Of a DNA stretch of 64,000 bases, positions 31,620 through 34,600 are shown in pieces. The translations under genes and the position numbers were made by a program. The notes beneath the pieces were generated by a model. The model saw only the letters and a list, made by a program, of their open reading frames with translations. It searched no databases and was not told where the DNA came from. Source of the DNA: Doris montereyensis (taxonomy: Eukaryota > Mollusca > Gastropoda > Nudibranchia > Dorididae); contig JAXRKP010000065.1 in NCBI GenBank assembly GCA_037039925.1, positions 266,001-330,000 of the forward strand. The letters run 5' to 3'. Every line of letters starts with the position of its first letter. Position 1 is the first letter of the stretch.

Positions 31620-34600
31620 GTAATACAATGGTACATGTAGCAGTTTACAAATATACCCTGAGGGAGATAGAAAAAACGTGTTGATAAGTAGATTGTGGTA
31701 GTAAGCAGACCACAAAGAAAGGCTTTGACCATAATTAAATCTAATTCTTATCCAAACCTGTCAATCATGCAATAAATGTTTATTCAGCTTTTAAACGAGG
31801 GACAGGTGAACCTTGAAAAAAAGGGGAAAAACCTTTGTAATGCAGCCAATGGCTGCCCCATTCTATCAACCACCAACACTACATTATCTTGGACATATCT
31901 TTGATTTGATTTACAACCTCATTTGTCTTCGAAACGTATCGTATTGTTAAGCAAATATAGAGACCATTGTTCGTTTTGCCTACACAAAACATGGTGTATC
32001 GCGACGCAGTGTCTGGCAGGTAGAGTAAGATTCACTGTGAACAGTCTATGTTAGACAATTACCATTGTTTGCCCTGCCCAGGTTGATGAATTGGTACCTT
32101 CCTGTCAGGCAGGTAAACAGAGTTTGTCATCAACACCTATCTACTATATATCTGAGAGGCATGGCTTCATGTGTTGAGTATAAACTCATCATCATAATCA
32201 TTCATTGGTATATCAATCTTATTATAATATAATGTATTATTATCATTCATCTTTAATTTAGTTTTGGCAATCACCTTTTATACAATCATTACATAACAAT
32301 TTGATTAAGTTCTGTTTTGTATTCAAAACGATTTTATACAACTCTTATAAGACAAAAGAGGAATTAATCAATCTATTGTTGTTATGCACAATGCACTTCC
32401 TTCTGTTAATATAGCATGGGTGAAGACACAAAGAGTTGTTGTTGATCACTTCTATATTTCATTTGTAATCACTAATCAATCCATCCATAGATACCACTGC
32501 CACTATCCACTGTCATCTGTAAGCATCACAACCAACATCATCAACTACACATCTGGTTCAGTTGAAATATGACACAAGACATCTGTCTTGACAACAATTT
32601 TGATAAGTTAGGTGTCTGCATGTTGGTAGTGGTCAGGCAGCAGGAGATTCAAACAGGGTGGGGCCAGTGGTAAGGGTAAATGTGCGGCTTGAGCTTAAAA
32701 AAAAGCTAAATGAAAATTGAAAATAAACGTCATTCATAAAATAGGGTTTTTGCTCTATTTATATCCTTTTTTTTTTACACAGGAATATAAATAAATAAAA
32801 TAAAATATTAAATTTGTTGGGATTAAAGAGCGCCACTTTTTAGAGACTATTTGAACTATTTATTCAACATTAAATAAAAAATGAAATATTAAAATCGTTA
32901 GAACTAAAGAGCACCGCTTTTTAGAGACTATTTGAACTATTTATTCAACATTAAATAAAAAATGAAATATTAAAATCGTTAGAACTAGAGAGCACCGCTT
33001 TTTAGAGACTATTTGAACTATTTATTCAACATTAAATAAAAAATAAAATTATCAAAATCGTTAGGACTAAAGAGCACCACTTTTTAGAGACTATTTGAAC
33101 TATTTTATTCAACAAGAAAAATAAAATAAAATATTAAATTCGTTAGGACTAAAGAGCGCCACTTCTTAGAGACTATTTATTTAATAAGAAGAAAATTATT
33201 AAAACTAAAAAGGGTCACTTTTTAGAGACTATTTGTTCAACAAGAAAAATAAAATATAATAAAAATGTATCTATCTAACATATTCCCTAATAAAATGAGA
33301 CAAATAAAAAAATAAAGTAAATAACCTTGAAAACATTATTAAACATGTTACCATTGATGACATAGAAGAAAGTATCTCTGGTGAATATATATGAGAACTT
33401 AAAGAATAGAATTACAATAAATACTACTCCAATAAAAATTAAAATAATTCTATCATGTGAATTAAGAATGCCTATAGCCTTTGGTGTTGTAGAATCATTC
33501 TATAGTTCACCAATAGAAACAATAAGAACTAAAAATAATATTACCACCTATTTTAAAAACTTAACGAATAAGTTTAATGCATGTGTTGATCAATATCAAG
33601 AGAAGGGTAGTGGATTTGTATTTAATAGAATATATGAATCAGAAGTGAAAATATATAATGTTAACTATTTAAAAGCATCATCTTATATACCTACTGCCTT
33701 TAGATCTAATATTATTATTAATGTTAAAAATGTAAATGATAATAAATGTTTTCTATGGTCTGTATATTCTATTAACACATCATGAAATAGATCATTGCTA
33801 TTGTTATTCAGCACCAGGATTAACTTGGCAATGTGGTGTAAAATATACTGTAGTAGAATTAGAATTACTTAGTGACAGTAATATGTTACTTATGTTTGAA
33901 AAAGGAATTAGAGGTGGTTTCTCTGGAGTATTAGGACCAAGACATGTTAAAGCATATAAGTTCAATAAATTCTATACAGATAATAAAGAAAAATATATTC
34001 CATATAAAATATTAAAATGTAGACTATAATTATAGATTACCTTTCTTCAGAGGATTTTATGCTGGAGATGGAGGAAATTGTTGCTTTGGATTTTCACAAA
34101 AATCAAAAATATCATTTTCATGTTTACATTATCTAATAACTTCATTAGGATATAATTCTAATGTAAATACGAGACAAGATAAACCAAATATTTTTAATTT
34201 AACTATTACACAAAAGAAACAAATTGCAAATATTAAAAAGATGGAATCATTAGGGAGAAAGAAAAGAATTGTTTATGATTTATCAACAGAATCACAAGAT
34301 TTTAATTGTGGTTTTCCATTAATTGTACATAATACCGATAGTATATTCTTATCTGTAAAAACAAATGATATTTATAAAGATATGGAGAAAATTATTGATC
34401 ACCTAGATACATCTGATTATCCTAAAGAACATCCATTACATTCTACAAAAAACAAAAAAGTGATAGGAAAATTTAAAGATGAATTAAAGGAAAAAATTAT
34501 GAAAGAAATTGTTTACTTAAAAAGTAAAGCATATTCTTTTACAATGGAAGATTTTAACAAAGTAAAAAAGTTAAAAGGAGTAGGACAAGCAACAATTAAA

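Follow-up and report, generated by a model that had tools for sequence, protein, structure and literature searches.

Evidence for a LAGLIDADG intein remnant at the pol-c site of a decayed Polinton DNA polymerase in a likely nudibranch genome

Introduction

Inteins at the pol-c site of family B DNA polymerases (PolB) are known from giant viruses and archaea. In the mimivirus protein P0139, for example, the insert divides motif C at D/TDS (the slash marks a junction), begins with Ser, ends with Asn and has a LAGLIDADG domain call. The polymerase that hosts the mimivirus-type intein is of the PF00136 type, and PF00136-type polymerases are RNA primed. Here we describe an insert at the same site in a different kind of enzyme, the protein-primed polymerase of a Polinton that has integrated into the genome of an animal. 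It lies in a stretch of 64,000 nucleotides assigned to Doris montereyensis (contig JAXRKP010000065.1, positions 266,001 to 330,000; "the window"), part of a 592,722-base contig in a 513-Mb assembly. We put at about 0.9 the probability that what survives in the window is the C-terminal part of a LAGLIDADG intein at pol-c of a decayed Polinton protein-primed polymerase in a likely nudibranch genome, and that the whole intein, predicted to be self-splicing, probably spread between Polinton lineages by homing.

According to the relevant passage of a 2018 survey (PMC5784728), the inteins of eukaryotes occur in the nuclei of fungi, in the chloroplasts of algae and in viruses; no metazoan intein is mentioned there. 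A 2024 preprint (PMC11071308), citing Jeong 2023 on nematodes, describes diverse homing endonuclease domains in Polinton protein-primed PolB proteins (pPolBs) and suggests intein invasions. As here, those endonuclease domains lie inside Polinton polymerases, whereas the passage concerned names no splicing domain, insertion site or mollusc. Polinton-like viruses with GIY-YIG and HNH genes are described in the corresponding part of PMC12220804, and no Polinton with an intein is named in the parts of PMC3671162, PMC5718144 and PMC10120064 that bear on the question. Among the titles found in a search of the literature on inteins, Polintons, adintoviruses and animal genomes, none reports an intein from the nuclear genome of an animal. 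A first-pass annotation of the window, made by a model from the letters alone, had known of no such intein; the novelty is limited by the 2024 preprint, which already suggested that inteins invade Polinton polymerases.

Results and Discussion

An intein remnant joined to polymerase motif C

The first-pass annotation had pointed to one open frame running from a LAGLIDADG-like motif through C-terminal splicing blocks into the second half of motif C, and this frame is present at 34016-34801 on the forward strand. It contains the second LAGLIDADG motif (FFRGFYAGDGG), block F (IVYDLSTESQDF) and block G (PLIVHN), with TDSIFLSV directly after (Table 1); the names of blocks A, B, F and G, of pol-c and of polymerase motifs A to C are those that we take to apply. 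Its alignment with the uninterrupted public polymerase P0022 extends over 287 residues at 65% identity (E = 1e-109) and takes in the C-extein as well as the final third of the intein; it is therefore not a chance reading frame. Its C-extein is 68% identical over 129 residues to an intact intein-free polymerase (L028) of the same genome. The 106 residues that precede TDS have no counterpart in the intein-free polymerases of this genome; full-length relatives without an intein exist, and these residues are not ordinary polymerase sequence shared with them.

The remnant had been drawn at 33950..34360. It is confirmed as a feature, with its start refined to about 33958, in another frame than 34016-34801. 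The stretch in that other frame was matched in 10 of the 18 other loci searched (5 intein-free loci included), and the junction before it, at about 33957, was set by eye against alignments of other genome loci. Two large internal stretches are absent from this copy: the upstream part, about 33294-33957, consists only of fragments of the same polymerase, and a large deletion after the second fragment has removed motifs A and B. The first 60% or so of the intein is also missing, with block A, block B and the first LAGLIDADG motif lost. Broken and without its N-terminal part, the window copy is itself dead. In Pfam, the intein piece reached E values of 0.01 for DUF3292, 0.067 for LAGLIDADG_3 and 0.073 for Intein_splicing, all under the curated cut-offs. 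The window-piece profile scores being weak, the case for an intein rests on homologues.

Uninterrupted relatives and predicted fold

A search of 5.8 billion proteins with the L028 polymerase gave 6808 matches of 7990 scored, and Intein_splicing was found in 3 of the best 120, which were inspected (P0008, P0022 and P0035). Thus, the profiles that the first-pass annotation had looked to for confirmation stay under cut-off for the window piece alone, but full relatives carry both the splicing and the LAGLIDADG_3 domains. The three inteins are 337 to 339 residues long and 75 to 86% identical, their exteins are 78 to 85% identical, and in uninterrupted proteins of 1504 and 1509 amino acids the reading frame continues from one polymerase half through the insert into the other. 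Block A reads D/SV.GDT in all three, and block B, with the TxxH signature, reads VDVTEDH in P0008 and P0022 and VDVTKDH in P0035. Both LAGLIDADG motifs and PF14528 are present in each; the window retains the second motif only and shares VHN/TDS with all of them. P0035 is recorded under a Candidatus Thiodiazotropha assembly ex Ctena and is probably DNA of the bivalve host.

In a predicted model of P0035, the extein matches the phi29 polymerase and the insert matches two solved inteins, 2cw7 and PolB16_OarG (8cpo), which come from other hosts and are only 20% and 23% identical. A match to I-DmoI covers residues 450-624 of the modeled protein, in keeping with a LAGLIDADG endonuclease fold, and the insert is predicted to be intein-like over its whole length. 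The relatives therefore combine an in-frame insert, Ser1 with block A, TxxH, His-Asn followed by Thr, and a predicted Hint splicing fold. The insertion falls between the first D and the T of DTDS in motif C, the pol-c site named by the first-pass annotation.

LAGLIDADG endonucleases are often carried by group I introns, and an insert of this kind might in principle be a group I or spliceosomal intron with a homing gene. We consider this very unlikely and have rejected the group I reading as largely refuted: the insert is in frame with both halves of uninterrupted proteins, it has N- and C-terminal splicing blocks, its predicted fold is intein-like throughout, and no Rfam family matched the window region or three sister loci (L014, L016 and L020, these three at gathering thresholds only).

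A search with the intein region matched 478 of 3013 candidates. Of the best 120, which were inspected, P0126, P0128 and P0155 carry DNA_pol_B_2, and most others are of the PF00136 type, including an archaeon (44% identity) and mimivirus, whose intein region is 44% identical to that of P0022. The proteins P0126, P0128 and P0155 are 44%, 48% and 30% identical, respectively, to P0035 and hold inteins at the same site. In IMG/VR, neither the window piece nor the L016 piece found a relative, and a scan with alignment A1 matched 39 loci. The L014 intein piece had weak matches only among PDB sequences, the best being a response regulator (E = 0.41), with the DNA polymerase chain 9hth_A, from an entry titled as a PolB1 split intein, at E = 0.64. 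The L016 piece matched the NEQ068 entry at E = 0.2.

Filled and empty sites in one genome

The window piece had at least 149 matches in the genome. In 62 of them the start lies near the extein boundary, at residues 95-107, and in 24 at residue 85 or before; these are matches and not loci, since the 62 include one intein locus (C472) and the 24 include two loci that are intein-free (L022 and L023). An N-terminal intein piece gave 34 matches. Together, there are at least 23 distinct intein loci (L001, L009-L021 and L045-L053). In all 8 intein loci where the N junction was read, the N-extein ends in SD and is followed by SVTEDT or SVTQDT, and block B (VDVTEDH) is present in L014 and L016. The C-terminal His-Asn is degraded in some sister copies, such as L009, L011, L013 and L014. 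The intein of L011 (1248-3916) is about 1.7 kb longer than the others, apparently through a second insertion within it.

Another 12 loci were taken as intein-free, with the polymerase reaching to within 3 residues of the site, the C-extein starting at residue 1 or 2, and no intein match. In two of them, an open frame (1149 amino acids in L027, 1179 in L028) continues across the site as SSD/TDSIF and ASD/TDSIF, respectively. Copies with an in-frame insert (SD/S and HN/TDS) and copies with none at the same site (SD/TDS) therefore coexist in one genome. In the N-terminal half of the intact L027 polymerase (568-4014), residues 420-473 resemble recombination endonuclease VII (PF02945, E = 5.5e-7), and a PF02945-type stretch is also present in many of the listed relatives of the L028 polymerase.

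Intein history and polymerase history

Both the D/S and the N/TDS junction could be located by pattern in 88 of 121 inteins; the other 33, in which both junctions were not found 280 to 480 residues apart, were left out. In an 88-row intein tree (quick method, midpoint root), the six pPolB inteins, those of P0126, P0128 and P0155 included, form one group with a Shimodaira-Hasegawa-like approximate likelihood ratio (SH-aLRT) of 97, adjoining a single long-branched PF00136 row, P0238. The P0155 intein belongs to this group at the same site even though its polymerase shares just 30% identity with P0035, a hint of transfer between protein-primed polymerases that are very far apart.

Within the genome, the filled copies fall into lineages A (10 loci, window included), B (4 loci) and C (7 loci), with L012 and L050 in none. 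A DNA tree of N-exteins from 31 of 35 loci (L001, L012, L015 and L019 had too few codons) requires 6 changes between filled and empty, 3 of them forced by starred branches, and places the empty copy L025 within a filled clade. Differences were counted by codon position with a local-quality filter and 95% bootstrap intervals over codons. Inside each group, N-extein and intein alike show similar amounts of change at the three codon positions, as expected of neutral decay once a copy has inserted. In the A-B and B-C comparisons, change is greatest at third positions, as expected if the protein had earlier been under constraint. For A and C, third positions differ by 0.327 (0.287 to 0.372) in the N-extein and 0.369 (0.297 to 0.432) in the C-extein but by 0.157 (0.133 to 0.187) in the intein, so that the intein is about half as diverged as its flanks. 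For A and B, the intein is more diverged, at 0.392 (0.335 to 0.451), than the N-extein, at 0.262 (0.217 to 0.307), or the C-extein, at 0.286 (0.226 to 0.350). On a 28-row DNA tree of N-exteins, empty copies included, the grouping of A and C in one clade is rejected (approximately unbiased [AU] P = 0.0002), while a 16-row protein tree of inteins joins A and C (100/100) and rejects A+B (P = 0.012) and B+C (P = 0.0095). Because these divergences are unlike across A, B and C, the history of the intein differs from that of the flanking polymerase, as homing predicts, and we read the pattern as probable transfer of the intein between polymerase lineages.

The main rival is vertical inheritance with the polymerase, in which gene conversion among integrated copies or unequal rates would have made the divergences unlike. 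The single group of six pPolB inteins fits it, as does the similar identity of intein and extein among P0008, P0022 and P0035. Rates alone, however, would not reverse the sign between A-C, with an intein half as diverged as both flanks, and A-B, with one more diverged, and conversion tracts would need to end near the intein edges. We therefore hold vertical inheritance to be unlikely. An argument from a clash of AB/C and AC/B topologies was dropped, since with only three groups no conflict can arise between unrooted trees, and A+C is not rejected by the protein extein tree.

Several observations count against the interpretation as an intein spread by homing. Profile scores of single genome pieces fall under the Pfam cut-offs, and among PDB sequences the L016 piece is closest to a response regulator (E = 0.0096). 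The polymerase has no PF03175 hit and no PDB sequence match, although more distant relatives do carry PF03175. Of the complete copies sought by the first-pass annotation, the N-terminal block was found in sister loci, but none of the 23 intein loci has an unbroken tblastn match over intein residues 1-337. Groups A, B and C were named after the trees had been seen, and L002, L025 and L050 were left out of the 28-row tree used for the A+C test. The protein extein tree favors A+B (86/88) and rejects neither A+C (AU P = 0.2) nor B+C (P = 0.07), so the discordance rests mainly on the distances and the DNA tree. The C-exteins of group A show a third-position excess (0.22 versus 0.13) that its N-exteins and inteins do not, and some group A copies may be mosaic, changing over close to the intein or downstream of it. 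Ectopic gene conversion could be another route to homogenized inteins.

In the proposed mechanism, the polymerase gene would be translated together with the insert, and a Hint-type splicing domain (Ser1, TxxH, His-Asn and Thr+1) would excise it, join the polymerase halves and restore motif C. In coresident elements with an empty polymerase gene, the LAGLIDADG endonuclease would cut that gene at the same motif, and repair from a filled copy would place the intein in the cut gene. Protein splicing, DNA cutting and homing are each suggested here by sequence features.

The element and its host

The first-pass annotation had assigned the remnant to a Polinton-like element, and the surrounding features bear this out (Table 1). 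Two inverted-repeat arms of 134 nucleotides, 86% complementary, lie 9.1 kb apart and enclose the protein-primed PolB, a double-jelly-roll capsid fragment and an A32-type packaging ATPase; inverted repeats, capsid fragment and ATPase together identify a Polinton. Neither a retrovirus-type integrase nor a cysteine protease turned up in general scans of the window and the polymerase frames, in a window element that is deleted and with intact elements unsurveyed. An NCBIfam scan gave one sub-threshold match to one frame and nothing for the polymerase pieces.

TABLE 1 Features of the Polinton and its polymerase, in window coordinates
Feature	Position	Strand	Basis
Left inverted-repeat arm	32998..33131	+	86% complementary to 42221-42354
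N-terminal fragment of Polinton protein-primed DNA polymerase, broken	33294..33770	+	P0022 residues 8-161, tblastn E 3.5e-37, 44% identity
Second polymerase fragment	33772..33957	+	P0022 from residue 637, tblastn E 1.1e-29; match itself extends to 34017, residue 719
Intein remnant start, about intein residues 209-227 of P0022	33958..34014	+	tblastn E 1.2e-5 over 33934-34014; frame differs from next part
Intein C-terminal part	34016..34333	+	Second LAGLIDADG motif, block F, block G to His-Asn
Second LAGLIDADG motif	34043..34075	+	In frame 34016-34801
Block F	34268..34303	+	In frame 34016-34801
Block G	34316..34333	+	In frame 34016-34801
C-extein, polymerase motif C (TDS) to frame end	34334..34798	+	TDSIFLSV at 34334-34357; stop 34799-34801
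Double-jelly-roll major capsid protein, fragment	35371..35736	-	PF21738 E 8.9e-13
LINE fragment inside element (reverse transcriptase and endonuclease frames)	36468..38740	-	RVT_1 E 8.8e-13, Exo_endo_phos E 1.4e-6
More element reading frames, no family above cut-off	39986..41246	-	Profile scan
A32-type packaging ATPase	41237..41983	-	PF04665 E 6.2e-5, 23.0 bits versus cut-off 22.8
Right inverted-repeat arm	42221..42354	-	Pairs with left arm 32998..33131

The element might also be contamination, for instance from a protist or giant virus in the sample, and beyond the other pPolB inteins the listed relatives of the intein are mostly of the PF00136 type, mimivirus and an archaeon among them. Against this stand at least 23 decayed loci across many contigs of up to 851 kb, the long interspersed nuclear element (LINE) nested in the window element, and a nudibranch-like COX1 in the assembly, and contamination was rejected on these grounds as highly improbable. 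Read in the invertebrate mitochondrial code, this COX1 matches a Polyceridae cluster at 97% identity (over 96%) and a Hypselodoris cluster at 95%, which points to a dorid nudibranch as the likely animal. The assembly has Wnt exons, and none of 14 control genomes gave a signal. COX1, the Wnt exons and the 593-kb contig with a LINE nested in the element support the placement in an animal chromosome. On contig C2227 (28,244 bases), COX1 matches lie about 14.2 kb apart, as if the mitochondrial genome had been assembled twice in tandem.

Spread over broken copies, the complete anatomy of an intein is present in elements that have integrated into an animal genome. The polymerase motif occupied is the one used in mimivirus and an archaeon, on a different kind of polymerase, and this ties animal Polintons to the giant-virus gene pool. 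With filled and empty copies of several polymerase lineages in one genome, intein homing in an animal becomes measurable from sequence. We give roughly even odds to the broader proposal that DNA viruses of animals have mobile, self-splicing inteins as living parasites, a single lineage having entered protein-primed polymerases, likely from a giant-virus or archaeal-type PolB, and homing today between Polinton families within animal hosts; if so, genuine inteins reside in metazoan nuclear genomes.

Other reading frames in the window

Directly after the polymerase, 34728-34982 and 35036-35224 hold cysteine-rich frames that reach no Pfam family at its cut-off and presumably resemble pieces of an HNH-type endonuclease. 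Outside the element, at 14165-15478 on the forward strand, is an open frame of 438 amino acids that we take to resemble a piggyBac-type transposase.
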